From IMG/VR virus record IMGVR_UViG_3300017751_000102, positions 1 through 32,637 of that record: a stretch of DNA of 32,637 nucleotides. One strand, written 5' to 3'. Positions 3,520-31,391 of this stretch are shown here, one piece after another; the first letter of the stretch is position 1; the number at the start of each line of letters is the position of its first letter. The notes below the pieces were generated by a model. It ran no database searches. It was not told the DNA's origin and worked only from the letters and a program-made list of their open reading frames with translations. The DNA comes from a virus. The position numbers were made by a program, and so were the translations under genes.

Positions 3520-3717
3520 TTGCTGTATGCCGCCATCATAGTTTTGTGCGCCAGTTCTGACATAAATACCTGTCATATCATAAAGCACCCCTCCACGTTT
3601 ACCGACATAGAAATATGTGAGGCTGTTCTCGAAGGTGGGGTGAAAGAGCATATGAAATATGCGGCTACTTACCGTAACGCTTTCTGCATTAAAGTATCTG
3701 TTGGAGAGCCAGCGTAG
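3520..3717 (+). CDS. Small Cys-containing protein with N-terminal hydrophobic segment (65 aa, TTG start)
   Basis: The frame begins with TTG at 3520, directly after the TAG of the previous gene, and no better start exists in frame. The product opens LYAAIIVLCASSDINTC, a short hydrophobic stretch like a signal peptide or small membrane anchor, and has four cysteines (10, 18, 33, 56) spaced as two possible pairs. A small exported or periplasmic phage protein is plausible. The weak start (AAGAAG only 3 bases upstream) implies coupling to the gene before it. It ends one base before the hydroxylase start at 3719. Confidence 0.5.
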   Translation: MLYAAIIVLCASSDINTCHIIKHPSTFTDIEICEAVLEGGVKEHMKYAATYRNAFCIKVSVGEPA

Positions 3718-3718
3718 T

Positions 3719-4399
3719 ATGGCTTTGATAGAAAGACTATTTAATAGCGATCTGTTTGACTTATTGACTATGCGTCTCTGTGATCTCCTGGTTAAGAACG
3801 GCAAGTACCCGTACAAGCCTTTTCTGAACGACGAACTTAAAGATCACGCCGGAGTATGCGAGTTACTAGATAATTTTGATCACGTTCGAGATGAATTACT
3901 CGAAGCAAGCCGCGGCTCAAGGTCCATACAAGGCGATCTGTTTTTCGAAGACGATATAACAGATGATGGGCTATGGGACCGCGTCTATTTAAAGTGGTAC
4001 TCAAAACCTTTTAAAGATGCTCTTGCGTCCTGCCCCAAGACGGTAGGCATAATAGAGCGTCACAAAGATATTAGACTAGCAATGGTTTCTATTTTGAAGC
4101 CGCATGCGGTAATCAAGCCTCACTCTGGCCCATGGGCGGGATCTTACAGATGTTTGCTAGGCATCAAGACCCCAAACAGTCCCGAATGCGCAATTACAGT
4201 GGCGGGTCACGCGGCGTGGTGGAAAGATGGCGAAGCAATGTTCTTTGACGATACGTTCGAGCATTCTGTCATCAACAACACCGAAGATTATCGTATTGTT
4301 CTCTTTCTAGACATTGAGCGGCCCATGAAGACGCGATTTTACGCGGCCTTGCGTTGGGTTTTAAACAGGACTGTTACGCTAATTACCCGAAGAGACTAG
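3719..4399 (+). CDS. Aspartyl/asparaginyl beta-hydroxylase-like Fe(II)/2-oxoglutarate oxygenase (226 aa)
   Basis: The C-terminal half matches the Asp/Asn hydroxylase family (PF05118; also LpxO). Visible elements are KPHSGPWAGSYR (His135, Arg144), a WWKDGEAMFFDD strand, FEHSVINN (His182), then YRIVLFLDIERP (Arg192 contacts the co-substrate in relatives). Family members use a two-histidine iron site, and both histidines are present. They hydroxylate Asp/Asn side chains or lipid A acyl chains, so a phage copy could modify host envelope lipid or a virion protein. The substrate cannot be read from sequence. A C-terminal hydrophobic stretch (YAALRWVLNRTVTLI, 208-222) may touch the membrane. ATG 3719 is preferred over 3659 because the upstream gene ends at 3717. 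Confidence 0.85.
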   Translation: MALIERLFNSDLFDLLTMRLCDLLVKNGKYPYKPFLNDELKDHAGVCELLDNFDHVRDELLEASRGSRSIQGDLFFEDDITDDGLWDRVYLKWYSKPFKDALASCPKTVGIIERHKDIRLAMVSILKPHAVIKPHSGPWAGSYRCLLGIKTPNSPECAITVAGHAAWWKDGEAMFFDDTFEHSVINNTEDYRIVLFLDIERPMKTRFYAALRWVLNRTVTLITRRD

Positions 4400-8074: not shown

Positions 8075-10168
8075 ATGGCCCTAGTACCTAGACCAGAAGA
8101 ACTAAATCTTGATTCCACGGACGATCCAATTCTGTACGCAGAAGAGGGAAGTAACGTAGACCAAGAAAACCGTGAACTGTCTGAGTTAGTATCTTGGGTA
8201 GAGAGCCGCTTTACGCGGTCTAAAACTGCTAGGTCAGAAGACGAAGACCGCTGGTTAATGAACTACCGCAACTATCGCGGTATATACGGACCCGAGGTGC
8301 AATTCACCGAAAAGGAAAAGTCTAAGGCTTTTGTTAAAATCACCAAGACTAAGGTTTTGGCAGCATATGCCCAAATGACTGACGTTTTGTTTGCTGGCGG
8401 GAAGTTTCCAATAGGTGTTGAGGCAACTACAATTCCTAACAGTGTTGCAGATGCTATCCACATTGCTGGCACCCCCAAGGAAGGCGCTCCGGAAAAGAAA
8501 CGCTCTACCACCGTATCTAGGAAAGAACTTCTTGGACCCTACCAAGCGGCCCTATCAGAGTATGCTGATGAGGTGAAAGAAGGCGTAGGCAAGAACCAAG
8601 GCGATATTACCTTTGAGCCTGCCAAATTGGCTGCGCAAAAAATGGAAAAGCGCATCCACGACCAACTAGAAGAGAGCGAAGCAAGTAAGCATCTACGCTC
8701 TATGGCTTTCGAGATGGCTCTTTTTGGAACGGGGATCATCAAGGGTCCGTTTGCGCACAACAAAGAGTATCCGCGGTGGAACGCAGAAGGTGAATACGAC
8801 CCTCTATTCGAGACTATAGCAAAAGTAGAGCATTGCTCCGTATGGGACTTCTACCCTGATCCGGAAGCCCGTTCTATGAGCGAAGCAGACTATGTCGTGC
8901 ATCGTCATCGCATGTCCCGCAGCCAACTGCGCGGCCTTAAACGCCGTCCAATGTTCCGAGAAGAGTCTATCGATATAGCAATTGAGTACGGACCAAACTA
9001 CCAAGAAGAATATTGGGAGAATGTACTGGAAGACAGTGCATCCCGTGGCGATACCGAGCGTTTTGAAGTGCTTGAATTCTGGGGATACATGGACCCTGAG
9101 ATTGCCGAAGAGGCCGGTCTAGATCTCCCTGAAAACTTGAGTGAAAATGGAGAGGTTCAAGTGAATGCTTGGATCTGTAATGGCCAAACCTTACGTCTTG
9201 TAATAAACCCCTTTGTTCCCGCCCGTATCCCGTATCACGCAGCGCCTTATGAGGCTAACCCGTATTCATTCTTTGGGGTTGGTATTGCAGAGAATATGCA
9301 CGATACCCAGTTGCTATGTAACGGGTTTATGAGGATGGCGGTGGACAATGCTGCCCTGTCCGGCAACCTGCTTATTGAAATTGATGAAACCAATTTGGTC
9401 CCAGGACAATCAATGGATGTGTACCCAGGAAAAGTGTTCCGGAGACAGGCGGGTGCCCCAGGACAGAGCATTTTTTCGACTAAGTTTCAGAACGTTAGCC
9501 AAGAATTGCTTATGATGTTTGATAAGTCGCGCCAACTTGCGGATGAAAGCACAGGTATGCCGTCTTACTCTCACGGACAGACCGGTATTATGTCTACGGG
9601 ACGTACCGCGTCAGGAATGAGTATGCTCATGGGGGCTGCGGCACAAAGTATTAAATCTGTTGTCAAAAATATTGACGATTACATGTTAGGCCCGCTCGGA
9701 AGATCCATGTTTGCCTTTAATATGCAATTCCGTTTCGACCCTGATACAAACGGCGACCTAGAGGTTGTTTCAAAGGGTACAGAAAGCCTGATGCGTAATG
9801 AAGTTCGCTCTCAGCGGCTCTTACAATTCATGCAGATGTCCGCCAATCCAGTTATGGCACCATTTGTAAAATTTGATTACATTCTCCGAGAGATCGCAAC
9901 GTCAATGGACCTTGACGAAGAAAAAATATTAAACGATCCGAGAGAAGCGGCGTTACAGGCTAAGATGATGGCACAGTTTGCCGCAGCAATGCCACAAGAG
10001 GCACCGCAGCCGGCCCCACAGGGGGGCGCACCAAATCCACAAGACCCGACGGGTAATGGTGGCGGTGTTATAGCGGCAGGAGCCGCCCCAGAACCTAGTG
10101 CAGCGGGTTTCTCGGGAGCGGGTGGGGGAGCAAACGGGGGTCAACCAGAGCAACCACCACAAGGCTAA
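8075..10168 (+). CDS. Portal protein (697 aa)
   Basis: Forms the dodecameric ring through which DNA enters and leaves the head. It follows TerL by 3 bases. The N-terminal part contains DEDRWLMNYRNYRGIYGP and TKTKVLAAYAQMTDVLFAGG, typical of large podovirus portals. A central region carries WDFYPDPEARSMSEADYVVH and later AENMHDTQLLCNGFMRMAVDN. Length is in the podoviral range of about 500-750. The last 60 residues are Pro/Gly/Gln-rich and probably disordered (QEAPQPAPQGGAPNP, then GGG runs). The ATG lies in TAATACATG, a junction repeated at the next gene. Confidence 0.88.
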   Translation: MALVPRPEELNLDSTDDPILYAEEGSNVDQENRELSELVSWVESRFTRSKTARSEDEDRWLMNYRNYRGIYGPEVQFTEKEKSKAFVKITKTKVLAAYAQMTDVLFAGGKFPIGVEATTIPNSVADAIHIAGTPKEGAPEKKRSTTVSRKELLGPYQAALSEYADEVKEGVGKNQGDITFEPAKLAAQKMEKRIHDQLEESEASKHLRSMAFEMALFGTGIIKGPFAHNKEYPRWNAEGEYDPLFETIAKVEHCSVWDFYPDPEARSMSEADYVVHRHRMSRSQLRGLKRRPMFREESIDIAIEYGPNYQEEYWENVLEDSASRGDTERFEVLEFWGYMDPEIAEEAGLDLPENLSENGEVQVNAWICNGQTLRLVINPFVPARIPYHAAPYEANPYSFFGVGIAENMHDTQLLCNGFMRMAVDNAALSGNLLIEIDETNLVPGQSMDVYPGKVFRRQAGAPGQSIFSTKFQNVSQELLMMFDKSRQLADESTGMPSYSHGQTGIMSTGRTASGMSMLMGAAAQSIKSVVKNIDDYMLGPLGRSMFAFNMQFRFDPDTNGDLEVVSKGTESLMRNEVRSQRLLQFMQMSANPVMAPFVKFDYILREIATSMDLDEEKILNDPREAALQAKMMAQFAAAMPQEAPQPAPQGGAPNPQDPTGNGGGVIAAGAAPEPSAAGFSGAGGGANGGQPEQPPQG

Positions 10169-10171
10169 TAC

Positions 10172-10399
10172 ATGTTAAAATCACAGGCCCGTAAGGCGCT
10201 AATTTTCGTAAATAGTACGGAAGTATATTCGTCTTTTCTGGGAGTAGTATCAGATAAGATAGAAGACCACCGCAATAATCTAGAAAAGACGAAAGATGCG
10301 GGGCGTATTAGTGAGATACAAGGTGCAATTTCTGAATTGCGCAGGCTACTACACCTCAGAGAAGAAGTTATTGAGGGGTCCGAAAATGGCTCAGAGTAA
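10172..10399 (+). CDS. Small helical protein next to portal (75 aa)
   Basis: Starts 3 bases after the portal stop in the same TAATACATG context. The sequence is helical with coiled-coil character (SDKIEDHRNNLEKTKDAGRI, then EIQGAISELRRLLHLREEVI). Small proteins of this type are found between portal and scaffold genes in marine phages and may be minor virion or assembly factors. No domain recognised. It overlaps the oxygenase gene by 14 bases. Confidence 0.65.
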   Translation: MLKSQARKALIFVNSTEVYSSFLGVVSDKIEDHRNNLEKTKDAGRISEIQGAISELRRLLHLREEVIEGSENGSE

Positions 10400-11075
10400 C
10401 CTCTTACACTTCATGCCTCTGTCTGTTTATTCCGCAAAAGCCGGTTTATCGGAAACTGAGCGAGAACAGATTGTAGAAAGCATTGATGCTTCTGTGTCGT
10501 CCAAGGATGAAACTAACGAGACTAGCACTTGGACAGGCGACGTGCATGGTTTCCATGAGTTGCATAATCACCCCGTATACCAGCGCCTGTTTGGTCTTAT
10601 TGGGGACCATGTTCGTAGATACATAGATCAACTTAATATCAACACTCAGACGTTCGATTACTACTACACTAGATCCTGGGCATCCCGACAGACTAAGGGA
10701 CGACAGATTGATTATCACCGCCACGAACAATCACACTTTAGCGTGGTGTATTACCCAAAAGTCCCAACTAACTCAGGGGCGTTTTGCTTGGCTACGGATA
10801 ATCATCAAAACGAAATTGTAGAGGGTATGTTTAGGCATGAGTACTACGATAAAGGGATTATTAAAACGGGTGCCTCGCACACAATGGCAGAGATACCTCT
10901 TGATGTGACCGACGACGATTTACTCATATTCCCATCTAAAACAGCCCATAGAACCGGCGTTAGCGATACTGACAAGCCTCGCTATTCTATTGCCAGCGAC
11001 CTGTTGTGCGTACTCCGAGACGCAGACAGTTTCGAGATTGGCCTACCCCCAATACATACATGGAAAAAAGCCTAA
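10386..11075 (+). CDS. 2-oxoglutarate/Fe(II)-dependent oxygenase (229 aa)
   Basis: ATG 10386 has GAGGGG 7 bases upstream; a TTG at 10296 is rejected as it overlaps too far. The double-stranded beta-helix signature is visible: IDYHRHEQSHFSVVYYP (His111, His113), a SGAFCLATDN turn, then LLIFPSKTAHRTGV (His188) and KPRYSIASDLL (Arg199). This is the order of the small phage and bacterial oxygenase family with HxH...LIFPSxxxH...R. Substrate unknown. Its place between portal and a virion hydrolase suggests modification of a virion or host protein. It is the second such enzyme here and not similar in detail to the hydroxylase at 3719. Confidence 0.8.
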   Translation: MAQSNLLHFMPLSVYSAKAGLSETEREQIVESIDASVSSKDETNETSTWTGDVHGFHELHNHPVYQRLFGLIGDHVRRYIDQLNINTQTFDYYYTRSWASRQTKGRQIDYHRHEQSHFSVVYYPKVPTNSGAFCLATDNHQNEIVEGMFRHEYYDKGIIKTGASHTMAEIPLDVTDDDLLIFPSKTAHRTGVSDTDKPRYSIASDLLCVLRDADSFEIGLPPIHTWKKA

Positions 11076-11076
11076 C

Positions 11077-12447
11077 ATGGATACTTCACCGCGACCAAAA
11101 GCGAGACCCAAGACAGTAATATCTGGAAAAGATCTTGAGCGCATTGAGCGAGTAGTTTGGGGTGAAGCGAATACAGAGGGGACCGCAGGCCGTGACGCTG
11201 TTAGAGGCGTTATACTTAATCGTCTAGCCTCAGATCGTTTTGGCAATACAATCCAAGAAGTACTGAACGATGAATTTGAGCCGGTGCAGAAGTACGCAAG
11301 CGCAGACAAAATTCCAGTTCCAGAGGACGATCTCCAAAGGGGACTAAACGAGTTTGCCGACTACATACAATTGGGCGAAGATCCTACGGACGGCCGTACC
11401 TTTTTTCAAAACTCTAAGATTACCAAATCCCGTGGCACACAGTTTTCTGGCCCAGACCCAAAAGTTATTGGGAAGCATACTTTTTACCGCGGGTACGGGG
11501 ACCAAGAGCCGGTATATGACACGGACTTTTCCCACAACATTAGCATTGACTACAGCGTGGATAATGACAAGGAGCCTTACGAAGTGGCACAATTTTCAGC
11601 CGGTGGCGCACTTTCGAAGTTGCGCAGTAAAGAAGAAAAAAAAGAGGCGGCAACCGCCCAAAAAATGTCTGTAGAAGAAACCCGTAAAGTTGCGGGTGAC
11701 CGAGATTTTGATGCGGCAAAAGTTACGGCAACTCGTCGTGATTTGTACGACGAAACAAATGAAATTATTAGTACCCCCCAAGAGCGAAAGCGAATTGATT
11801 CAGCGCGTACTAGCCGTCTTCCTGAAATGGATGATCAAGAAAATCCTAAAACTGCAAAATTGCCCGACACCGAAGAGGTTAAAGGCAACGGCCTAGATCT
11901 TCTCAGCATGAGCCACGGTGGGATGGCATCCGCAGGCATGATGGCTCCATCTGGGGTGATTGGTTACGACCCTGTTTCAGGTAACCCTATTCCCGTTGGT
12001 TCTACCGCGCAGAATGTACGGGACGATATACCGGCGGCTCTATCTGAAGGGGAGTTTGTTCTGCCCGCAGATGTCGTCACATGGCATGGCCTCAAGCACA
12101 TTATGGGCATGTATAACGAGGCCCGAGTTGGTCTAATGGCAATGGCCTCTGTAGGCCAAATAAAAGGAGTACAAGATGAAAACGGACCTGATGATGGAAC
12201 AGTATGCGGATGTGGTAAAACAGACTGCGAATATTGTTCTGGAATGGACAAAGACGACTATGGAAGCGCAGACGAAGATCGCGGAGACGGTCAAGACGTT
12301 GACGAACCTACCGTCGAAGTAGTCGAAGAAGAATATCCTCTTTCGGCAGAGGATTCAGAAGGTGTTGAGGCATACCCAACCGAAGAGAGCGGTCAATACA
12401 CAGTCGGGGATGAACAGGTTTTACTGATTTTCCAAAACCCTAAGTAG
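11077..12447 (+). CDS. SleB-type cell wall hydrolase fused to a virion domain (456 aa)
   Basis: Residues 16-140 match the Hydrolase_2/SleB family: IERVVWGEANTEG with catalytic Glu30, a GVILNRL helix, then FFQNSKIT and IGKHTFYRGY. These enzymes cleave peptidoglycan glycan strands. A linker of about 130 residues follows. Residues 278-365 form a second conserved phage domain (SHGGMA, YDPVSGNPIPVGS, then DDIPAALSEGEFVLPADVV and TWHG), recurrent in marine phage structural proteins. A Cys cluster CGCGKTDCEYC (377-387) and a very acidic tail end the protein. Lying in the head module, it is likely a virion-associated lysin that opens the wall at infection, not the late endolysin. Confidence 0.8.
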   Translation: MDTSPRPKARPKTVISGKDLERIERVVWGEANTEGTAGRDAVRGVILNRLASDRFGNTIQEVLNDEFEPVQKYASADKIPVPEDDLQRGLNEFADYIQLGEDPTDGRTFFQNSKITKSRGTQFSGPDPKVIGKHTFYRGYGDQEPVYDTDFSHNISIDYSVDNDKEPYEVAQFSAGGALSKLRSKEEKKEAATAQKMSVEETRKVAGDRDFDAAKVTATRRDLYDETNEIISTPQERKRIDSARTSRLPEMDDQENPKTAKLPDTEEVKGNGLDLLSMSHGGMASAGMMAPSGVIGYDPVSGNPIPVGSTAQNVRDDIPAALSEGEFVLPADVVTWHGLKHIMGMYNEARVGLMAMASVGQIKGVQDENGPDDGTVCGCGKTDCEYCSGMDKDDYGSADEDRGDGQDVDEPTVEVVEEEYPLSAEDSEGVEAYPTEESGQYTVGDEQVLLIFQNPK

Positions 12448-12450
12448 GGA

Positions 12451-12485
12451 GTTTTTGGGCCACCCTGCGCGGCCCCCGAAAACAT
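12451..12485 (+). promoter_or_regulatory. Hairpin before the scaffold gene
   Basis: GTTTTTGGGCC (12451-12461) can pair with GGCCC-ccg-AAAAC (12471-12483) around a 9-base loop with a 3-base bulge. It could attenuate or process the transcript between the hydrolase and scaffold genes. No T-run follows on the + strand, so it is not a simple terminator in that direction. Confidence 0.35.
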
Positions 12486-12500
12486 ATGAGAACACTTAAA

Positions 12501-13271
12501 ATGGCTAAATATAGTAGCAACCAAACGGAAAGTCTTGAGCAAGAACTAAATCAAACTCAAGGACAGGCTCCGCAAATCCCCGTGGCAAATGACACTGAAG
12601 AGACTTCCTTTAAAAAACGATACGGAGATCTTCGCCGGCATATGCAAGGCCTTCAGTCTCAGAAAGACGAAGAGATTGATCGCCTAAAGGATCAACTAGA
12701 ATCCGCTACCAAACAACAAATCCGCTTCCCAAAAACAGACGCGGAGATTGATGAATGGAGTAATCGATACCCCGAAGTCAGTAAAATTATTGATACAATT
12801 GCCCGTAAGCGCGCCAATGAGGCGCTCGAAATAGGTGAAAAGAAGATCCAGAAATTGGAGAAACTTGAGTATCAAATTCATAGGGAAAAAGCCGAAAACG
12901 AACTAAAGGGCATGCACCCAGACTTTGATCGTATTCGTTCATCAAAAGAGTTTCACGATTGGGTGTCTGAGCAACCTTCTTGGGTTCAGGACGCCTTATA
13001 CAAAAATAGTACAGATGCCCGCGCGGCTTCCCGTGCGATCGATCTCTTTAAGCAAGACAAAGGGATAACGACTAAGAAGGCATCCCCTACTTCCGCTGCA
13101 CAATCTGTAGGAAGAACTTCTACTTCCGCACCTAGCGGGGGACGTGCAAAATTCTCAGAGAGCGTTGTGTCTAATATGACAGACGCGGAATATGAGAAAA
13201 ACGAAGATGCAATTATGGACGCAATGCGTAAAGGCCAGTTCACATATGATCTGTCCGGCGCAGCACGATAA
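12501..13271 (+). CDS. Head scaffolding protein (256 aa)
   Basis: Guides procapsid assembly and is then removed. It sits directly before the capsid gene. The sequence is Gln/Glu/Lys-rich and helical (QDEE-type coiled coils: SQKDEEIDRLKDQLESATK, EKKIQKLEKLEYQIHREKAE) with a central EWSNRYPEVSKII module. The C-terminal FSESVVSNMTDAEYEKNEDA followed by IMDAMRKGQFTYDLSG is characteristic of podoviral scaffolds. Start is uncertain: ATG 12486 is in frame 15 bases earlier, and neither start has a clear ribosome site. MAKYSSNQ is the more natural N-terminus. Confidence 0.8.
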   Translation: MAKYSSNQTESLEQELNQTQGQAPQIPVANDTEETSFKKRYGDLRRHMQGLQSQKDEEIDRLKDQLESATKQQIRFPKTDAEIDEWSNRYPEVSKIIDTIARKRANEALEIGEKKIQKLEKLEYQIHREKAENELKGMHPDFDRIRSSKEFHDWVSEQPSWVQDALYKNSTDARAASRAIDLFKQDKGITTKKASPTSAAQSVGRTSTSAPSGGRAKFSESVVSNMTDAEYEKNEDAIMDAMRKGQFTYDLSGAAR

Positions 13272-13281
13272 TTGCCTATTG

Positions 13282-13342
13282 TAGAAACCATTAGTTGCGT
13301 GTTATAATTACTCCTATAGTACCTATTTTCTAATGGTTTCTA
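13282..13342. promoter_or_regulatory. Extended -10 promoter inside a 13-bp perfect inverted repeat
   Basis: TGTTATAAT (13300-13308) is a perfect extended -10 element, identical to that at 4440. It is bracketed by TAGAAACCATTAG (13282-13294) and its exact reverse complement (13330-13342), 35 bases apart. Read-through RNA would fold this into a 13-bp stem. RNA initiated near 13315 would contain only the right arm. The promoter serves the major capsid gene at 13596. Confidence 0.65.
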
Positions 13343-13595
13343 TGGTCCTCTGGACCTTGAGATGTTGAGGCCGCATTAGCCTACCCCCAACAATCTTACT
13401 CACCCCACAGAAGATTTGACAATAAGTTTACCAGAGTCAATCGGCCCTGTGACTACACATGAAAAATGGGCGTATCCTATTTTACTGAGTGTCATAGCAC
13501 CCCTTTGAACTACTGCCCTTAATTCGTCGCCTTCTGGTTTTAGCAAAACCGCAATTCCTGCGGTCCTTGTCAACGCCATTGAAGGAGAACTTAAT
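13343..13595 (+). other. Long structured leader of the capsid gene, no gene seen
   Basis: A 324-bp gap separates scaffold and capsid genes in an otherwise packed genome, and no open frame in it has a ribosome site. It carries perfect small hairpins: GGTCC-TCT-GGACC (13344-13356), AGGC/GCCT (13368-13382), GGTTTT-AGC-AAAACC (13536-13550) and CCGCA-ATTCC-TGCGG (13549-13563, sharing two bases with the previous one). A strong AAGGAG (13582-13587) ends it, 8 bases before the ATG. The leader may stabilise or regulate the most abundant late mRNA, or encode an RNA. Confidence 0.5.
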
Positions 13596-14642
13596 ATGGC
13601 ATTTCCAAAAGCATCCGGTTACGGCAACTTGCCAAATGGCTCGTTTTCGGCCGTAATTTATTCCAAAAAAGTCCAACTTGCTCTTCGCAAGGAATCCATC
13701 TGTGAAGCGATCACAAATACGGATTATATGGGCGAAATCAGTAACATGGGCGATTCAGTTCGCATCGTCAAAGAGCCAACGGTAGACGTGGTGGACTATA
13801 AGCGCGGCACAGCAATGAGTTCGCAAAATCTTGTAGATGAAGACTTTTCTCTCATCGTCTCTGAAGCCAATGCGTTTCAATTCCAAGTCGATGACATTGA
13901 GTCAAAACACTCACACGTCAATTTTATCGACTTAGCCACTGATAATGCTGCATATAATCTGAAAGATGCGTTCGACAAGAACGTATTGGGTTACATGACA
14001 GGCCATGAGTGGAATGGTTCCGCATGGGTTGCGCGCACCGCTCCGGCTGGTGACAAAGCAGACGCCGCTGCCGACGCAGATGAGTTGCTTGCAGGCAACA
14101 AACTTCATGCCGGCGACTTCGGTGGTACTGATGATAACTCCATTCCTCTCGCCGCTGGCGGTGGTACAGGCGTTGTGTCTCCATTGGCTTTGCTTAACCG
14201 CATGGCACGTCGCATGGATCAAGCAAACGTACCTACAGAGGATCGTTATTTTGTAGCAGATCCAGTGTTTTACGAACTGTTGCAAGACGAAAACAGCAAA
14301 CTGATTTCTAATGATTACGCTGGAAATCAAGACGCTGGCGACATTCTTCGTAATGGTCGTGTAGTTGCAGGCCTCATCCGTGGCTTCAAACTCTACAAGT
14401 CTAACAACCTGCCGTACCTCGGTACAGGTGCAGGCACAACAGACGCCGATGGTAGCACAACTAACATGGGCATGGTCTTGGGCGGTCACATGGCAGCATG
14501 TGCAACAGCACAGCAAATCTCCAAAACGGAAGCATTCCGTTCACCGGATACCTTTGCAGACGTTGTTCGTGGTCTCAACCTCTTCGGTCGCAAGATTCTG
14601 CGCCCCGAGTCTTTGATGGTTGCGTCTTACAACGTTGCCTAA
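13596..14642 (+). CDS. Major capsid protein (348 aa)
   Basis: Main head shell protein, expected to have the HK97 fold. It has the strongest ribosome site in the window (AAGGAG) and its own promoter and terminator. It opens MAFPKASGYGNLPNGSFSAV and includes VRIVKEPTVDVVDYKRGTAM, a DRYFVADPVFYELLQDENSK segment, then GFKLYKSNNLPYLG and a C-terminal GLNLFGRKILRPESLMVASY. The last is a common ending of podoviral capsid proteins. Length and position after scaffold fit. Codons are cleaner and more uniform than in neighbours, as expected for a highly expressed gene. Confidence 0.9.
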   Translation: MAFPKASGYGNLPNGSFSAVIYSKKVQLALRKESICEAITNTDYMGEISNMGDSVRIVKEPTVDVVDYKRGTAMSSQNLVDEDFSLIVSEANAFQFQVDDIESKHSHVNFIDLATDNAAYNLKDAFDKNVLGYMTGHEWNGSAWVARTAPAGDKADAAADADELLAGNKLHAGDFGGTDDNSIPLAAGGGTGVVSPLALLNRMARRMDQANVPTEDRYFVADPVFYELLQDENSKLISNDYAGNQDAGDILRNGRVVAGLIRGFKLYKSNNLPYLGTGAGTTDADGSTTNMGMVLGGHMAACATAQQISKTEAFRSPDTFADVVRGLNLFGRKILRPESLMVASYNVA

Positions 14643-18276: not shown

Positions 18277-18693
18277 ATGGCAGATAAAACACTCGCATAC
18301 TGGAACCTAAAGCAATCTACAGCCGTAAAGGCACTGACAACGCTATCCGGTATGCTCGACAGTCCAACAACACGCGACGTGATCGTAGTTGTTAAGGCAC
18401 TAGAGATTATGGACGATGAAGCCAAGGTCTCTGGCTACGACGAACTGGTAGAGAAACTCGTTGGAGCGGCTTCTACTGTAATGGATTCGTCTCTTGCAGA
18501 TGATGACATGATGTACGTTGTCCGCGCGATCTCCTACGGACGTGTCCCCTTTGGGTCCGAAGCGTGGTGGAAAATTAGACACAAAGACTCAGAAAATATC
18601 GATTGGCACGGTCAAGTCCAAGTCGGTGAAAGAACCCTAGAGGCATTTGGGGACACCATTTTAGAAACATTTTATGCAGAGGAAACTACCTAA
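18277..18693 (+). CDS. Hypothetical protein in tail module (138 aa)
   Basis: Opens MADKTLAYWNLKQSTAVKAL and is mainly helical with an acidic middle (ALEIMDDEAKVSGYDELVEK, SSLADDDMMYVVRAI), then AWWKIRHKDSENIDWHGQVQ near the end. GGGAG (18261-18265) is its ribosome site, and it overlaps the next gene as TAATG. A chaperone or minor tail component is plausible from position only; no domain recognised. Confidence 0.65.
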   Translation: MADKTLAYWNLKQSTAVKALTTLSGMLDSPTTRDVIVVVKALEIMDDEAKVSGYDELVEKLVGAASTVMDSSLADDDMMYVVRAISYGRVPFGSEAWWKIRHKDSENIDWHGQVQVGERTLEAFGDTILETFYAEETT

Positions 18694-19679
18694 TGGCTAC
18701 GGTTAATTACGATGTCACTGTTGGGGCTTACGCTGAAGGTAACCGTTACCAAATCGACGGTGCTAAGACCCCCAATCTATTTTTAGTTCGCGGAAACACA
18801 TACATTTTTGATGTGTCTGACGCTACAAACGCAACACACACAATGGGCTTTGCCACCGCCGCTGACGCAGCGGGTTCGACAGAGTATACCTCGGGTGTAA
18901 CAAGTTCAGGTACAGCGGGTTCCGCAGGGGCTACGGTCACTTTTGTAGTGCCTTCAGACGCCGCAGAAACTCTGTTCTATTACTGTACAGCACACTCTTC
19001 TATGTCTGCTAACGCGGCAATATTCGTGTCCGGCGTAGAAATCACACCTATCTCTGACAAGTCCGCAGTTGCAGATATCACAGTCACAGATTTCTCTGCC
19101 AACACCAGTATCTTCACAAACACCTTGGCGCGCGAAATCCCATCTAAAATTGATTCAATCGCAAGCGACTTCAAAACACATATCAATGATAATTTCGCTG
19201 ATGTAGTTGTGGGTGATGTTAATGCCTTCATCGACGGTCTTGAGACATACCTCAATGGCACTGTGGTAGCGGCTATCAACACCGCCATAGAGTCAATTCG
19301 CACTGATGGAACTAAGTTCGCTGGCGACATTGCTAAAGAGCAAACTGAATTTGAAGGTGGATTTGAAGCACGTTTCCAAGGCCTTGAAGATGGCCTGAGT
19401 ACTTATGTAGGCGATGAAGCCTCTTACACAAAAGCACAAATCGACACCACTTTGTTTACCGGTGCTATCTCTTCCACAAACATTTCGCATGATTCCGATG
19501 GTCGCCTCTCTTCCATCAAAGCGAATGGAAAACTGATCTGGAACATTACATACGACAGCGATGGTTTTTTAGAAGGTTTCCGCGAAAGTGTGGATATTGG
19601 AGGGTTGCCCGTCACTAAAGTATATAACGTCATCACAGACGCAGACGGTTTGATCGAAGCAATTGAAGACATCTCATAA
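18693..19679 (+). CDS. Tail protein with cupredoxin-like copper domain (328 aa)
   Basis: Residues 1-113 form a cupredoxin-like domain: NLFLVRGNTYIFDVSD, ATHTMGF with His49, a SSGTAGSAGATVTFVVPS strand pair, then LFYYCTAHSSM with Cys98, His101 and Met104. His, Cys, His, Met with C-x2-H-x2-M spacing is a complete type-1 copper ligand set (amicyanin-like spacing). The middle (115-260) is helical. The C-terminus carries three DxDG segments (HDSDGRLSSI, YDSDGFLEGF, TDADGLIEAI) resembling repeated calcium-binding or beta-hairpin units. It sits between fibre genes, so a virion surface role is likely. Relatives of this domain occur in marine phage tail proteins to my knowledge; copper binding itself is not shown. 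Confidence 0.72.
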   Translation: MATVNYDVTVGAYAEGNRYQIDGAKTPNLFLVRGNTYIFDVSDATNATHTMGFATAADAAGSTEYTSGVTSSGTAGSAGATVTFVVPSDAAETLFYYCTAHSSMSANAAIFVSGVEITPISDKSAVADITVTDFSANTSIFTNTLAREIPSKIDSIASDFKTHINDNFADVVVGDVNAFIDGLETYLNGTVVAAINTAIESIRTDGTKFAGDIAKEQTEFEGGFEARFQGLEDGLSTYVGDEASYTKAQIDTTLFTGAISSTNISHDSDGRLSSIKANGKLIWNITYDSDGFLEGFRESVDIGGLPVTKVYNVITDADGLIEAIEDIS

Positions 19680-19696: not shown

Positions 19697-20590
19697 ATGG
19701 ATCTTTATCTCCTTAACGAACTGAACAAATTGGAGGCAGGTGGAGCGGGTTCTTCAGGGGCTTCCTCTGGAAGCATGTTTCTTCCCCCCGACTTAGATGG
19801 TACAACCCCAAATGATGTCGGGTCATGGCCTATAATTACCCGCGCATCTGACCGCAACCAAACTGATAACTGGGGTTGGACTAGTGGAAGCCCGTATGAT
19901 TCTTTTTATACCTACGGCGGGAATAACGATAAGGATGCCGAACACGGCGTTCTTGACTGTCTTCACGCGGGGTATACTGAAAACAATAAATTAGATAACT
20001 GGACTACTGGTACTGAACCCGCACTAGCGTACAGCCTAGATGGCGCTCATGTAGGCACACAGACACACTATTCGACTAAGTGGTCTGGCGCAGACTACGG
20101 CCCCTTTCGGACCAGCATAATGTGGCTTCGCAATATGTCGGGGAGTACAATTAACTCCGCGCAGGTATGGGGGAGATATTCCTCTCAATACCAATCAGGT
20201 CACGATGGTGCCTCTATATGGATAGGAAAACCCAATAGTGCCGCAAAGGGCAGCGTTTCTAGTATGAATTGGACTAGAGACTCATATACAGGCAATGCTC
20301 AAGAATGGAACGGTTCCGTTTCTATGAGTTCTGTCACAAATGGTATGACTATCTGCGTTTTGGGCATGAATACTATGTATTATCATCAGGATTCATCCAA
20401 CGTAGCCTCATGGCAAGACACCAACATTTTTTATAATCTACAAACCCTTTGGAACCAAGGATTTCGTCCTGATTATAATATGTACAAGACCAGCCTTCTT
20501 GCCAGAGATGGTGAGTGGAACAGTTTTCAGTACTCTAATCGGGTTAAACATCTGTATACGATGTGCGCCTATGAATATCCCGAAACTTGA
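19697..20590 (+). CDS. Tail receptor-binding-like protein, paralogue 1 (297 aa)
   Basis: First of three tandem related genes. The N-terminal MDLYLLNELNKLEAGG helix is shared with the next two and probably docks on the tail, followed by a Gly/Ser hinge. The body is rich in Trp, Tyr, Asn and Ser. The shared core lies at residues 134-180 (YGPFRTSIMWLRN, then YQSGHDGASIWIGKPN). A later strand pair (GMTICVLGMNTMYYHQD) is also conserved in position. Aromatic, polar surfaces of this kind suit carbohydrate binding. TAGGAG precedes the ATG. Confidence 0.7.
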   Translation: MDLYLLNELNKLEAGGAGSSGASSGSMFLPPDLDGTTPNDVGSWPIITRASDRNQTDNWGWTSGSPYDSFYTYGGNNDKDAEHGVLDCLHAGYTENNKLDNWTTGTEPALAYSLDGAHVGTQTHYSTKWSGADYGPFRTSIMWLRNMSGSTINSAQVWGRYSSQYQSGHDGASIWIGKPNSAAKGSVSSMNWTRDSYTGNAQEWNGSVSMSSVTNGMTICVLGMNTMYYHQDSSNVASWQDTNIFYNLQTLWNQGFRPDYNMYKTSLLARDGEWNSFQYSNRVKHLYTMCAYEYPET

Positions 20591-20605
20591 TAAGGAGACA
20601 GTTTA

Positions 20606-21532
20606 ATGGATACGGACCTATTTTTACTAAACAAACTGTCTAAGTTAAAGGATGGCAATTCAGGCGGCGGCGGCGGGGTGGCTGGGGGATACTTAATTTC
20701 CCCTAAAGACCCTTCTACCAACAACTATCATGTAAGGAAGAAGCCTTTCTATACCGTGTATTCCACCAATACTAGGTACGCATATGACGGGCAGGAGTGG
20801 GCGAGTAGTAACGCACAGGGTAGTTTCTCTACAGCCGCCCAGTATGGCGCTAGCGACCGAAGGGCAATCTTCTTCGCAGGTCGTGAAGAAATGGATAGGT
20901 CTCGTGATGACAAGATCTACAACCACACGCATGGTGGTCGCTCTCGGCACAACACATCTCAGAAATTGCAGGGGTCATTACGCCATCACTGCGGCATAAA
21001 CCAAATGCAGCACATAGGCCGTTGGCACGATAACTACGGTTCTTTTGGTACTAGGCTTCTTTTCTTACGAAATCCTACTGATAGCAACGTATCTGCCAAT
21101 CTGTACTGGCAACATAGTACCCGCTATACTCACTCACATGATGGCAGTTGTTTAATTGAATACACCCCAAACAATACTGCGTACTCAAATGTGTCAGGGG
21201 TCGCTCATAGCACAATTTGGAGTTACACCTCAGATAATTGGCACGGTCAGAGCGATGTACAAATTACCCTGACTCCAGGCCAAACTAGAGCCTTTGCTCT
21301 TTGTACCAACTTTATGTACTACACCAACACAAATAATGGGTATCTTATTTGGGAAACTAACTCCTTTCATAGGACTAACGATACGTTGGATAGCGGTCTG
21401 GAAATAGACTTAAAAGCAACCCAGCATTACTTATGTAATCGCCAACCAAATTATACTGGCTCTGACAGTGGTAATCAGGACTTAATTACATTTTGGAAGT
21501 CTTTGGGTGAAGCATTTGGAGATAATGAATAA
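20606..21532 (+). CDS. Tail receptor-binding-like protein, paralogue 2 (308 aa)
   Basis: Second paralogue. It has the same N-terminal plan (MDTDLFLLNKLSKLKDG, Gly-rich hinge GGGGG) and the core at 144-190 (YGSFGTRLLFLRNP, then THSHDGSCLIEYTPNN). A conserved late segment (GQTRAFALCTNFMYYTNTN) and an ending LGEAFGDNE resemble paralogue 3 (CGEIFGD). Residues 90-140 are unusually His/Arg-rich (NHTHGGRSRHN, LRHHCG), a possible metal or acidic-sugar site. AAGGAG precedes the ATG; the stop overlaps the next start as TAATG. Confidence 0.7.
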   Translation: MDTDLFLLNKLSKLKDGNSGGGGGVAGGYLISPKDPSTNNYHVRKKPFYTVYSTNTRYAYDGQEWASSNAQGSFSTAAQYGASDRRAIFFAGREEMDRSRDDKIYNHTHGGRSRHNTSQKLQGSLRHHCGINQMQHIGRWHDNYGSFGTRLLFLRNPTDSNVSANLYWQHSTRYTHSHDGSCLIEYTPNNTAYSNVSGVAHSTIWSYTSDNWHGQSDVQITLTPGQTRAFALCTNFMYYTNTNNGYLIWETNSFHRTNDTLDSGLEIDLKATQHYLCNRQPNYTGSDSGNQDLITFWKSLGEAFGDNE

Positions 21533-22458
21533 TGGACCTCTATATACTCAACGAAATACAAAAAATGAAAAGTGGAGGCGCTCCAACGGGTGATGCTACA
21601 AGTTCTCCTGGTATTTATCCTACAGAAATGCCTACTGAGACTGAAGCCTCTCAGACCATCGTTTCCATTAGCGGAATACAGGACAGATACTACCATCAGT
21701 CTTATGATTGGAACACCAACCACCCCTCTTCGGGACAAGGTTGGCACGCCTATGACAGTGATTGGAGAACCACAGAAAGTAAGTGGCGCATACCAAATGG
21801 CATGGGATTCCATAGTTTTGGCGGTCACGGTAGGGAAAACGGAAACTTTACTAAGTCATGTCGTACCCACTACGCAACTAGAGGGACTGTCGGTCCTATG
21901 CACATGCAGTTGTCGTCAGGGCGTAATTCTAATGACTATTCGCCCCACTGTACCAACATGATGTTTGTGCGTAACACAACTGCGTCAGATATCACAAAGA
22001 ATGTGCATTTCTACTACACAAATTACTGGCAAAATGGGTACGAGGGTGGCACCCTGATCGCGTACACTCCAAACCATATTAACTACTCACAAGCCACACG
22101 ACAGAATAGTAATTGGGATGTTAGGTGGAACACCTCAAGCGGCGGCGGCAATCACACCCACGACAGCGCTTCTGTAACTTTTCCCGCAAATAAAACTGTC
22201 GCTCTTATGCACACTAATACCCTTTCTTATTGGGATGCCTTCTCCTACCATACACAGCATAGGAACTCATGTTATTTCAGTCATTTGCATACTATTTTTG
22301 ATGGTACAGGTCAGTTGGTCTGTGACTTACAGATGTCTCAGGTATATGAGCAAGCCAGAATTCCAGAGTTTGTTAATGAAAATTACAACCAAAACGAGAG
22401 TTTCTTTCGTTTTTACAATAAATGCGGCGAAATATTTGGTGACAGAACCCCCGCTTAA
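21532..22458 (+). CDS. Tail receptor-binding-like protein, paralogue 3 (308 aa)
   Basis: Third paralogue. N-terminal MDLYILNEIQKMKSGG, core at 136-181 (YSPHCTNMMFVRNT, then WQNGYEGGTLIAYTPN), later ASVTFPANKTVALMHTNTLS, and the ending CGEIFGDRTPA. The regions between these motifs differ strongly from the other two copies, as expected for receptor-binding proteins under diversifying pressure. Many His, Trp and Tyr residues are present. It overlaps paralogue 2 as TAATG, so the three are co-translated. Confidence 0.7.
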   Translation: MDLYILNEIQKMKSGGAPTGDATSSPGIYPTEMPTETEASQTIVSISGIQDRYYHQSYDWNTNHPSSGQGWHAYDSDWRTTESKWRIPNGMGFHSFGGHGRENGNFTKSCRTHYATRGTVGPMHMQLSSGRNSNDYSPHCTNMMFVRNTTASDITKNVHFYYTNYWQNGYEGGTLIAYTPNHINYSQATRQNSNWDVRWNTSSGGGNHTHDSASVTFPANKTVALMHTNTLSYWDAFSYHTQHRNSCYFSHLHTIFDGTGQLVCDLQMSQVYEQARIPEFVNENYNQNESFFRFYNKCGEIFGDRTPA

Positions 22459-22477: not shown

Positions 22478-22882
22478 ATGTTATACTTGATTACAATGGG
22501 TGACGATCAAAAATCTCAGTCCGTTAAAAATATCGATGAAGCCCCAGAAGAACTAGCCACTGGACAAGTTGTGTATGACTCTGGTGAAGAGCCTGTAGAC
22601 ATTATGCGGTTTATGGAAAATTCAGATGGCGATATCGTGCCTATGACGGCAGAGGATCGTGACGCAGAAATCGCTGCGATGGCTATCCCAGCCGCTGCAC
22701 AGCGCAACCGTAGGTTACGGGATCAACTCCTACTGGATTCCGATTGGACACAGGTAGTTGACACGCCACTGAGCGATACCGCAAAAGCCGCATGGGCTAC
22801 CTATCGAACCGCTCTGCGCGACATGCCAGATCACACAGAATGGCCTATGGTAGACGAAAACGATTGGCCTACGGCTCCGTAA
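22478..22882 (+). CDS. Phage tail assembly chaperone (134 aa)
   Basis: The C-terminal half reads RNRRLRDQLLLDSDWTQVVD, then TPLSDTAKAAWATYRTALRD and WP..P, the signature of the tail fibre assembly chaperone family (Phage_tail_APC). Such proteins help fibres fold or attach and lie just after fibre genes, as here. The N-terminal part is acidic and likely specific to this fibre set. Strong ribosome site AGGAGA upstream. Confidence 0.8.
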   Translation: MLYLITMGDDQKSQSVKNIDEAPEELATGQVVYDSGEEPVDIMRFMENSDGDIVPMTAEDRDAEIAAMAIPAAAQRNRRLRDQLLLDSDWTQVVDTPLSDTAKAAWATYRTALRDMPDHTEWPMVDENDWPTAP

Positions 22883-22964: not shown

Positions 22965-23396
22965 ATGCCAATCTCCCCCCAAGAAGTGCTAGACGGCTTA
23001 TACCTCTTTTCTCATACTGAATTCTCAAACGAAGTATCTGTATCAGAATTTTGTGCCGACTACGTCAATCCGCTTACTACGGGACATGCTGTTCTATACT
23101 ATGCGGAAAAGGCCAATGGCCTTAAAACCCCCGCAGGATTAACAACGTGGTGTTGGTTCACCGACGAAGAGGCCGAAGCCTTTAAGCGTGGGGAATTTAA
23201 TCCCTCATTGGAAGACTACTCTAGGGAAAGTGGGGACCAGTTGTGGGGCATATGGATGCTGGCACCCTTTGGTCATCTTAGGCCTGTTTGGAAGCAGATG
23301 AGCGACCATTGCCAGAAACTATACGGACCCCAAAAAGTACACTGGCTCCGAGTTAATAAAGACACCACAGATAAAATCCATAAAGGCAGGATGTAA
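22965..23396 (+). CDS. HlyC-like toxin-activating lysine acyltransferase (143 aa)
   Basis: Matches the HlyC/RTX-activating acyltransferase pattern (PF02794) along its length: an early LFSHTEF with His17, a GHAVLYYAEKANGLKTPAGL strand pair, TWCWFTDEEAEAF, EDYSRESGDQLW with Asp91, the hallmark WMLAPFG (97-103), then VHWLRVNKDTTDKIHKGR. His17 and Asp91 are close to the catalytic His and Asp of HlyC (about 23 and 92). HlyC transfers fatty acyl groups from acyl-carrier protein to lysines of RTX toxins. No RTX toxin is seen nearby, so the substrate here may be a virion protein such as the fibres or the next gene product (inference). Length is slightly short of HlyC (about 170). Confidence 0.8.
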   Translation: MPISPQEVLDGLYLFSHTEFSNEVSVSEFCADYVNPLTTGHAVLYYAEKANGLKTPAGLTTWCWFTDEEAEAFKRGEFNPSLEDYSRESGDQLWGIWMLAPFGHLRPVWKQMSDHCQKLYGPQKVHWLRVNKDTTDKIHKGRM

Positions 23397-28031: not shown

Positions 28032-28575
28032 TGCTGCGCAAATGTTTGATGCCCCAATTGCGGGTGAAAACCTAACTAGTGACCCTAAAAACTACCCTTG
28101 GCACCGTCCCCCTGATCTGGTAGAGTATGATGACGTTGTTGATTACATGATCGGAAAGATCATGGAGCCAAAAACCCTGAACGGACTAATGACGTTTGTT
28201 GATTCAGGTTTCACAATTACCTCACTTATTTCTTATGCGATGCTATCGAATATCGGTAGGGGAAAATTTCAAATTGATGTGGCTATACTTGCAGCCGGAC
28301 CTTTAGCGCGATTGCTGCAAATCCTAGCAGAGGATGCCGGTTTGGATTACGTCATGGGCGTCGAAGAGGACTTCAAACGTATGTCCCCTGTCATGCTTAA
28401 ACTGGCTATGGAAGACGACGACATCATGCCCGACGACCCTTCCGAAGAAAACTCCGAGGAAAACCCTACCGAAGAGAGTGGCCTGATGGATGAATCCGTT
28501 CCTCTAGCCCCAGCAAGTGACGACGAACAAAACGCTATGCTTGGCTATGGCGATGAACAAGAAGAGGTTGTCTAA
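28021..28575 (+). CDS. Conserved structural-operon protein (184 aa)
   Basis: ATG 28021 has GGGAG 7 bases upstream; an ATG at 27970 would overlap the previous gene too far. The sequence includes SDPKNYPWHRPPDLVEYDDV, then DYMIGKIMEPKTLNGLMTFV and GRGKFQIDVAILAAGPLARL, hydrophobic stretches that may be buried helices. The C-terminal 50 residues are very acidic (MEDDDIMPDDPSEENSEEN). It is probably a small virion or assembly protein. No catalytic motif. Confidence 0.7.
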   Translation: MKSDAAQMFDAPIAGENLTSDPKNYPWHRPPDLVEYDDVVDYMIGKIMEPKTLNGLMTFVDSGFTITSLISYAMLSNIGRGKFQIDVAILAAGPLARLLQILAEDAGLDYVMGVEEDFKRMSPVMLKLAMEDDDIMPDDPSEENSEENPTEESGLMDESVPLAPASDDEQNAMLGYGDEQEEVV

Positions 28576-31391
28576 TGAGCGGTTTTGATGATTTTGCCGA
28601 TGGGTTTGCCGATGGTTTTGTCCCCGTATACCAACGACGCATGGCTGCGAAGGATAATTTAGAGAACGATTTGCTGCGAAGCAACATTTCTAGTTGGAAT
28701 AAAGAGAAAGACCTATATACCGCGCAAAAAGTTAAAGATGCTAAATTACTAGCGCAGGCTAACGGCATCCTAAATAGTGCAGGAACCTTGCCCGCGCATA
28801 TCCGCAAACAAGACGCCCTGTCTTTAATCACACAAGAGTTAACAACATACGAAGATGCTAAGTACGTTGCCGAGCGTTTTAGTGACGCCATCAATCGTGG
28901 AGCATTCGTAGGTGCGGGAACAGACCTAACAGGAGCGCCCGTAACCAACACGGTTGTTGATACTGAAATGGCCGCTATTCAGTTGTCCGGAGGTGCCGCA
29001 CAGCGAGGCGACTCTATCTCAGGAATGAACGAGCAATTTGCCGCGAACCTTAACTCTATGATGAGTGAATTGCCTGAAGATTTGGCGGGTCGTCTGACCG
29101 TGTATAGCGGGTATCGTAGCGCCGACATTCAGGCGGGTATCTTAGCAGACAACATGGGCAAGTATGGGTTTCAGCCCGCAGAAATTGAAGAGTGGAAGAC
29201 AGATGTTTCTAATCTAGGGGCGGTTGCCGCCGGACAGAAATGGGAGAGCCGCTTTGACCCCTCTGGCATCCGTAAGTTTGTTGCACTCCCAGGATCATCT
29301 AAACACCAATCCGGTGAAGCCGCCGATCTTAAATTGGACGGAAAACGCCTTGATCAGATTGACGAAGCAACCCGCGAACGCATACACCAGCACGCAGAGG
29401 CATACGGACTAACCTTCCGGATGGGGCATGAGCCATGGCAAGTTGAACTTGATCCAAACAATAGTAATAACGACCCAACTCCACAGACTACCTCGAATGA
29501 TGATGCTGACGACGAAGAGGTGGGCTTGGGTGGCCGCATCGTTAAGGGAATTGCAACTATTTTGGGTGTGGATCAGGACTACTATATTAATAATGCTAAA
29601 AATCGTTTCCTTAGTCATCTTGAAAGCACCGGTGAAGCAGAACTTTATGACCTTGTGAAATCAGGGGAGCGGTCTACCCCACCTGTAAGTGGAAATCTAT
29701 CATACGACACCCGCCTGATGTCTATGGAGGTGGTTAAGCCACCTGAACTTACTGGTGTGTCTAAAATAGAAGACGTAAATGCTATTAGGGCGCAAATTTT
29801 GGCCTTTGGCATCAGTACCACAGAGGGGTACGACGCAGCACTAAATGCACTAGAGACAAAATTCGAAGCGGGCTTACCAATGGGACTTACAGCCCTAGGC
29901 GATTTGGCAGGAAAAGATGAGGTTCTGCGTAACTTTCAAACTCTAGCAACCTTAGAGGCCAATGATAAAGATGCGTTTGCAGCCCTGCCACAAGGCTATG
30001 TGGAAGTAGTCCGAAACCTTAAAGGCGCATACGACGAAGTCCCTGATGGCGAAAAACTTACACGCACATACCTTGCAACAAACCACTTCAAACTATTTGA
30101 GGCGGCACAAAGCGGTGATGCGGCAGCGAAGGAAGCATTTGCTGTGTGGAAGGCTAGTACAATGCCGTCCATGTTGGCTGCGATTGAGGCCGCGAACCCA
30201 AGCGATCCAAAGGTAGCGGACCTTAATGAACTGTACTCACAACTCAATCTAGAACAGCGCGCAGCCAATCCAGACCAAGAAAGAATTAAAGAACTGAATC
30301 AGCAGATCGAAGCAAACCTTCAGGCAACACGCTCTGAAACCATGGTTAAAGGCGAAGAATCGACTAAGATCGTCGCAGTCAAGCCAGACGGTACTTGGGG
30401 TGAGATCGATGTCCGTACTAAGTTTAACGGCACCGACTACGACTATGTTGATGCAGACGGCGAAAAGTACGATCTGGGCAAGACAAGCGAAGACGGCGTA
30501 ACCTATCAAAAAGTTTCTGAAAAAGAGTGGCAAGAACATACTAAAATCTACAACGCTACCAGTACCGAGCGCAATAAATACAAGTCATACGCCACCACAC
30601 TTGTATCCTCTCTGCCTCTCGCGGCTCGGACGTACACAATTATTGATCAAAACCCTGAAGTCACACGCAGGGTCGTTGCGACAGCGCGTAGTGCAGTAGG
30701 CGCTATTAACGAGGTCGTAACAGGTATCAACCTACTGACCGAAGTGTTTAAAGAAGGCGGTGATAAGCAAATCACCATGGCAGACGCCGTCGGACAAGGC
30801 CTAGACACGTCACGACTAGAACAGATCTCGAAAGGACAAGGTCTAGAGACTATAAGTAGCCCCTTGTTGCGACAGCGGGCCATCTTCGAAGCCAATATGA
30901 TTCTGTTAACCTTCCAGATCGGTGGCCTAGAGGGGCAGCGCGGTAACGCCATGTCAAACAAAGACTTTGAGCGTCTGTCTGAAATCTTGAGTTCTACAGA
31001 CCCAGAAGTAACCAAGACACTTATGCGAAACTACTTTGGAGATAAAATCCAAAGGCTCAGAACTATGGAGACTACAGTATATGATACCAATTACGAGGGC
31101 GGCAGTGCCGCGGCGTGGGAGGAACGTACAGGTATTAGTTTCTTTAAGGAAGAAGATGGGGTTTCCCGCCTAGATAAGTTGATTGGTGACGATCAGAACA
31201 GTGTTATTAGCCAATCATACAATCTGTTTAATCCAGACAACAACACCACGACGATCTCTAAACCTCCGAACCAAGTACCCCAACGCAAGGTGGGTGACGT
31301 CTATAACGGGATGGAAATCACGGCAGTAGACGGCAATAAGATTACCGTTTTAGTTGGCGGAGTCCCAACAACATTCACAATTAAACAGTAG
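28575..31391 (+). CDS. Large virion protein with M15 (VanY-like) peptidase domain (938 aa)
   Basis: Residues 145-292 resemble D-Ala-D-Ala carboxypeptidase/M15 enzymes: LTVYSGYRS (Arg181), GSSKHQSGEAADLKL with zinc ligands His244 and Asp251, and GHEPWQVEL. In the last motif the usual third ligand His (PWHxE) is Gln289, encoded by CAA, so zinc binding may be weakened or lost. The N-terminus begins MSGFDDFADGFADGFVPVYQ with a short DFADGF repeat. The rest (300-938) is helical with charged repeats, a likely ejected internal protein. The last 60 residues form a beta-rich domain (NGMEITAVDGNKITVLVGGV). It may open peptidoglycan as the phage injects. Overlaps the upstream stop as TAATG. Confidence 0.75.
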   Translation: MSGFDDFADGFADGFVPVYQRRMAAKDNLENDLLRSNISSWNKEKDLYTAQKVKDAKLLAQANGILNSAGTLPAHIRKQDALSLITQELTTYEDAKYVAERFSDAINRGAFVGAGTDLTGAPVTNTVVDTEMAAIQLSGGAAQRGDSISGMNEQFAANLNSMMSELPEDLAGRLTVYSGYRSADIQAGILADNMGKYGFQPAEIEEWKTDVSNLGAVAAGQKWESRFDPSGIRKFVALPGSSKHQSGEAADLKLDGKRLDQIDEATRERIHQHAEAYGLTFRMGHEPWQVELDPNNSNNDPTPQTTSNDDADDEEVGLGGRIVKGIATILGVDQDYYINNAKNRFLSHLESTGEAELYDLVKSGERSTPPVSGNLSYDTRLMSMEVVKPPELTGVSKIEDVNAIRAQILAFGISTTEGYDAALNALETKFEAGLPMGLTALGDLAGKDEVLRNFQTLATLEANDKDAFAALPQGYVEVVRNLKGAYDEVPDGEKLTRTYLATNHFKLFEAAQSGDAAAKEAFAVWKASTMPSMLAAIEAANPSDPKVADLNELYSQLNLEQRAANPDQERIKELNQQIEANLQATRSETMVKGEESTKIVAVKPDGTWGEIDVRTKFNGTDYDYVDADGEKYDLGKTSEDGVTYQKVSEKEWQEHTKIYNATSTERNKYKSYATTLVSSLPLAARTYTIIDQNPEVTRRVVATARSAVGAINEVVTGINLLTEVFKEGGDKQITMADAVGQGLDTSRLEQISKGQGLETISSPLLRQRAIFEANMILLTFQIGGLEGQRGNAMSNKDFERLSEILSSTDPEVTKTLMRNYFGDKIQRLRTMETTVYDTNYEGGSAAAWEERTGISFFKEEDGVSRLDKLIGDDQNSVISQSYNLFNPDNNTTTISKPPNQVPQRKVGDVYNGMEITAVDGNKITVLVGGVPTTFTIKQ

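Follow-up and report, generated by a model that had tools for sequence, protein, structure and literature searches.

Genomic setting of three tandem genes

The DNA analysed here, hereafter the window, is the whole 32,637-nt stretch of the virus record IMGVR_UViG_3300017751_000102. Its terminase shares 67–70% identity with the terminases of Roseobacter phages CRP-3, CRP-235, CRP-212 and CRP-738, indicating that the window is a fragment of a marine HMO-2011-type podovirus. Three ORFs, A, B and C, were found exactly where a first-pass annotation of the sequence had placed them. The genes upstream of A match tail and tail-fibre families, and downstream of C lie genes for a tail-fibre assembly chaperone, an HlyC-type acyltransferase and a lysozyme. 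The features are as follows.

18693..19679, + strand: upstream tail protein (gp18693), similar to a T4-type connector (phrog_677, 3.5e-14); bounds the apparent cassette on the left and is a candidate docking site of the helices
19697..20590, + strand: gene A, 297 aa; predicted helix at residues 3–13, Gly/Ser linker at about 14–28, predicted beta-sandwich
19697..19735, + strand: predicted anchor helix of A, residues 1–13, MDLYLLNELNKLE; 100% identical within class A
20606..21532, + strand: gene B, 308 aa; paralogue of A and C
20606..20650, + strand: putative anchor helix of B, residues 1–15, MDTDLFLLNKLSKLK; 90% identical within class B; assigned from sequence, B being without a fold model
21532..22458, + strand: gene C, 308 aa; paralogue of A and B
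21532..21570, + strand: predicted anchor helix of C, residues 1–13, MDLYILNEIQKMK; 85% identical within class C
22478..22882, + strand: tail-fibre assembly chaperone (Phage_tail_APC, here APC; PF16778, 7.1e-15); diverges and appears to be exchanged with A, B and C
22965..23396, + strand: HlyC-type acyltransferase (PF02794, 6.3e-12); right edge of the apparent cassette

A neighbourhood of tail-fibre genes that includes an assembly chaperone is a setting expected of receptor-binding proteins, which is what the first-pass annotation had taken the three products to be. The tail or receptor-binding context of that proposal is supported, its hetero-oligomeric tip is a live option, and A, B and C very probably constitute a receptor-binding module of the tail.

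Homology, anchor helices and predicted fold

A tblastn search of the window record with A as query retrieved B (E 8.5e-17) and C (E 2e-8) and no fourth copy. Smith–Waterman z-scores among the three were 14–22 at full length, and still 7–14 standard deviations above shuffled sequences once the helix and linker (residues 1–32) had been removed, showing that the homology extends past the first 15 residues. The paralogy is thus well above chance. The core motif read earlier as [LV]RN...G[HY][DE]G...[KT]PN is present in A (LRN..GHDG..KPN) and C (VRN..GYEG..TPN); in B, SHDG replaces G[HY]DG. The remark that the proteins belong to no described family holds for Pfam, but the core of C (1.4e-8) and that of B (0.003) match phrog_16274, a family without an assigned function. 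The match covers only profile positions 283–417 of 453, consistent with a shared domain and short of full membership.

The members of phrog_16274 are WOcauB1 gp17 of Wolbachia phage WO and its relatives, in which the core domain was also detected by profile comparison (E 1.4e-21 to 1.4e-16). The homologous core spans about 100–125 residues, whereas the WO proteins are about 460–478 aa long, match in their C-terminal third only, and showed no match to the anchor helix. In tblastn searches of named phage records, weak Wolbachia phage WO matches, confirmed by profile, were obtained for the A protein of contig L017 and for the distant copy on contig L040, and nothing for C or for its counterpart on L016. 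L040 carries that single distant copy, which has no anchor helix, followed by an APC chaperone; with the WO core, it indicates that the domain occurs outside the three-gene arrangement. No family member was found in the whole records of CRP-3, CRP-212, CRP-235, CRP-738 and HMO-2011, and prokaryote genomes gave pattern matches but no relative. Two further arrangements were noted in passing. Downstream of the distant copy on L040, long ORFs at 9960–11471 and 12220–13770 share similar motifs (NPLPTF..., FYDFQW/YNDFQW) and by eye appear to be a tandem pair. In the corresponding region of HMO-2011 (L011, 6102–10917), five small tail-fibre genes, paralogues from a different family (30–41% identical), are interleaved with other genes, giving a further array of paralogues within a tail-fibre region.

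The N-terminal anchor helix and Gly/Ser linker that the first reading had described as common to the three proteins were seen in all of them. The helices of A, B and C read MDLYLLNELNKL, MDTDLFLLNKLSKL and MDLYILNEIQKM, respectively, that of B (MDxDLFLLNKL) being offset by two residues relative to A and C. Within-class identity of helix versus body was 100 versus 38% for A, 90 versus 37% for B and 85 versus 39% for C, so each class has kept its own anchor while the body changed. We also considered whether the helix is a general anchor carried by unrelated proteins. A degenerate DNA pattern searched against the viral collection returned the A/B/C family and just two further matches, neither of them a long open frame; with a less strict protein pattern, the loci examined yielded family members only.

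AlphaFold2 models of A and C, built with 18–19 family sequences, reached pLDDT values of 78.5 and 75.3, respectively. The two models predict the same order of elements: a helix at residues 3–13, then a disordered linker and a single strand, followed by a stretch of poor model quality, a beta-sandwich and helices at the C-terminus. For both, the best structural match was A0A6J7WNI8 (E 8.5e-20 and 2.4e-18 for the two models; query TM 0.66–0.72; 20–22% identity), the predicted structure of an uncharacterised protein of an uncultured Caudovirales phage. Unrelated folds past the first 15 residues had been named beforehand as the result that would speak against the first reading; A and C, folded separately, share both their element order and their best structural relative, an outcome in its favour. 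Comparison of the two models with the PDB gave no clear relative, the best Z score of 6.4 lying within the stated noise of the tool. The weak matches include many carbohydrate-binding modules, adhesins (yeast adhesins among them) and similar sandwiches; on the models, these are consistent with a binding function and fall short of demonstrating one. The receptor-binding protein of lactococcal phage 1358 was matched by Foldseek at E 4.7e-4 with a TM of only about 0.2. An enzymatic beta-helix tailspike was rejected as a candidate, since A and C are predicted to form a beta-sandwich with flanking helices and contain no long repetitive right-handed beta-helix.

Copy number, apparent exchange and variation among relatives

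Scans of viral contigs recovered relatives from five divergent lineages, the window included, together with fragments. Exactly three copies are present at every locus read across both ends, namely the window, L013, L016/L036 and L022/L035, the upstream end of the last being supplied by L054 through a 91-base overlap. L017 also has three copies, with C running off the contig end. In a tree of 21 members, the sequences fell into positional groups with support of 99/98 for A, 100/99 for B and 95/96 for C, and wherever more than one copy is present among these members the order is A-B-C. With the N-terminus removed, groups A (99/97) and B (100/99) were retained, and C became an unresolved fork that does not contradict the grouping. 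The stop codon of B overlaps the start codon of C (TAATG) in four of the five lineages, suggesting coupled translation. Judged from these three positional orthologue groups, held in one fixed order across five divergent lineages, the triplication is old.

Comparison of the window with L036 revealed an identity of 93% for gp18693, 35, 30 and 34% for A, B and C, 42% for APC and 82% for the HlyC-type acyltransferase; few parts of the region compared are as divergent as the cassette. Across all genome pairs, divergence was correlated between A and B (r 0.91), A and C (0.86) and B and C (0.91), and with the chaperone for B (0.92), A (0.75) and C (0.60). For the upstream neighbour gp18693, r was 0.02 with A and −0.01 with B. 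As they come from five to seven lineages and few, non-independent pairs, these correlations are descriptive and should not be read as probabilities. The simplest reading of the sequences is that A-B-C-APC is exchanged as one block, which looks uncoupled from its flanks. As a separate observation, the tail protein at 18693–19679 is 93% identical to L036 5180–6166 while neighbouring tail genes are 57–80% identical, a pattern suggestive of a recent exchange with its end at gene A.

Variation at a finer scale was examined in three contigs from other metagenomes that are 99.7–99.9% identical to the window. Two of these, L006 and L032, span gene A and carry the same nine amino-acid changes in A relative to the window (codons 54, 64, 68, 69, 164, 188, 200, 217 and 234), with one change in B and none in C; a tenth replacement in A, at codon 279, occurs in one of the two. 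The remaining differences are mostly synonymous. All nine changes map to predicted loops of the model (P = 2e-4). Nonsynonymous change in A exceeded the rate of synonymous change in the neighbouring genes, with P 0.001 by base and 0.013 by codon, in what is a single allele pair. A neutral test within gene A alone was not significant (P 0.20), so the case for an excess depends on comparing A with synonymous change in the genes on either side. The third near-identical contig (L026/L005) stops inside A at 20532 and gives next to no information on this gene, and a second allele pair, L039/L015, gave no strong repeat, having only three differences, two of them in A. Assembly error is an unlikely source of the differences in A, the same alternative codons being found in two contigs from different metagenomes. 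Retroelement-driven diversification found no support in the sequence examined: no RVT_1 match above the cut-off was obtained in the window fragment or in a 53.6-kb relative (G001), and no template repeat was found, gene A sequence occurring only once in the window. The best reading is that A is a fast-evolving contact subunit, to which diversification in these near-identical viruses is confined.

Proposed tail tip, alternatives and known systems

We propose that the products of A, B and C are co-adapted and together make up a single receptor-binding tip, carried on the tail of an HMO-2011-type podovirus, in which each is a subunit and A provides the contact surface; we assign this reading a probability of about 0.5. 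Virion location, receptor binding, the docking partner and a hetero-oligomeric, probably A:B:C, stoichiometry are what we infer here; that the three proteins form a single hetero-oligomer is an evenly balanced proposition. Docking on a conserved part of the tail would use the N-terminal helix specific to each class, together with the flexible Gly/Ser linker; the 18693–19679 protein and a bundle formed by the three helices are the candidates for this site. Each protein would present a beta-sandwich body. The APC chaperone encoded just downstream may aid folding or assembly. A would bear the fast-evolving contact surface with B and C as more constrained partners, and a large-scale change of specificity would proceed by replacement of A-B-C-APC as one block. 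A stricter form, combining an obligate A:B:C tip, a four-gene cassette swap and an arms race with the host that involves only one subunit, is put forward tentatively. If the proposal is correct, a variable contact subunit with two constrained partners would keep assembly intact while specificity changes, and a second, apparently unrelated three-paralogue tail tip would stand beside that of a virophage (see below). The locus offers three genes, one chaperone and one candidate dock as targets.

In the strongest alternative, each of A, B and C builds its own homo-oligomeric receptor-binding spike; the three spikes would have different roles, such as binding a first and a second receptor, share one anchor type and be co-inherited for the same host. 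Phage fibres are generally homotrimeric, one type of anchor helix is found in all three proteins, only A diversifies among near-identical viruses, and lock-step divergence is also expected if all three spikes adapt to one new host. Constant order and copy number across about 35% identity nonetheless fit an obligate complex slightly better, as do lock-step divergence with one chaperone and the B–C translational overlap, and the helices are class-specific and not interchangeable; we regard separate spikes as rather unlikely. It is improbable that the three are other virion proteins with carbohydrate-binding-like folds, such as head decorations, neck appendages or tail accessory proteins: the fold matches are weak and unspecific, and in Wolbachia phage WO the distant relative sits within a tail gene region that has no assigned function, but the site between tail-fibre genes and the APC chaperone is repeated in L040, and the cassette is highly divergent with loop-confined replacements in A. 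Least probable of all is the recent amplification and diversification into several host specificities envisaged in the first-pass annotation, which the tandem paralogues in a tail-fibre region might suggest but which is largely refuted by copies that group by position rather than by genome and by fully read loci with never more or fewer than three copies and no recent duplicate. What survives of that account is paralogy, a shared anchor helix and a tail context; the old orthologue groups, the fixed A-B-C order, divergence in step, apparent block exchange with the chaperone and diversification of A only do not support copies amplified to give several host specificities.

An arrangement of this kind has been described in the virophage DSLV2 (Aquatic Virophage 1), in which three consecutive tail genes form positional clades and the tail proteins were shown biochemically to form a heterotrimer, which attaches to Synechococcus cells (PMC12724248). 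A, B and C resemble that set in being three consecutive genes, each position with its own clade, conserved together, and in their probable role in receptor binding. The likeness is one of arrangement: the DSLV2 proteins have 196–247 aa and resemble the T4 gp37 needle tip, whereas A, B and C have 297–308 aa, with a predicted beta-sandwich and an N-terminal helix, and belong to a tailed phage in which such a complex is proposed. A T4 gp37-type needle fold was not among the PDB matches listed for the models of A and C, although such lists exclude nothing. By analogy, the three-gene heterotrimeric tail is already known from DSLV2, and the present case would be a variant of it in a tailed phage. 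No three-paralogue heteromeric tip of a tailed phage was found in the literature searched, which mostly did not extend to subscription papers. Adjacent receptor-binding genes whose products are held together through N-terminal docking parts also occur in multi-tailspike clusters such as TSP1–4 of Escherichia phage CBA120; those are enzymatic beta-helix tailspikes with large adaptor domains, whereas A, B and C have short helices and predicted beta-sandwich bodies.

Several other genes in the window were noted. The HlyC-type acyltransferase at 22965–23396 lies in a phage tail region, and a similar site in CRP-235 carries an annotated toxin-activating lysine-acyltransferase. Putative hydroxylases are encoded at 3659–4399 (aspartyl/asparaginyl beta-hydroxylase, PF05118) and at 10296–11075 (2OG-Fe(II) oxygenase, PF13759), the latter between portal and cell-wall hydrolase genes. 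The 938-aa product of 28575–31391 is a large virion-type protein containing a VanY-like D-Ala-D-Ala carboxypeptidase domain (PF02557, 5.4e-8).
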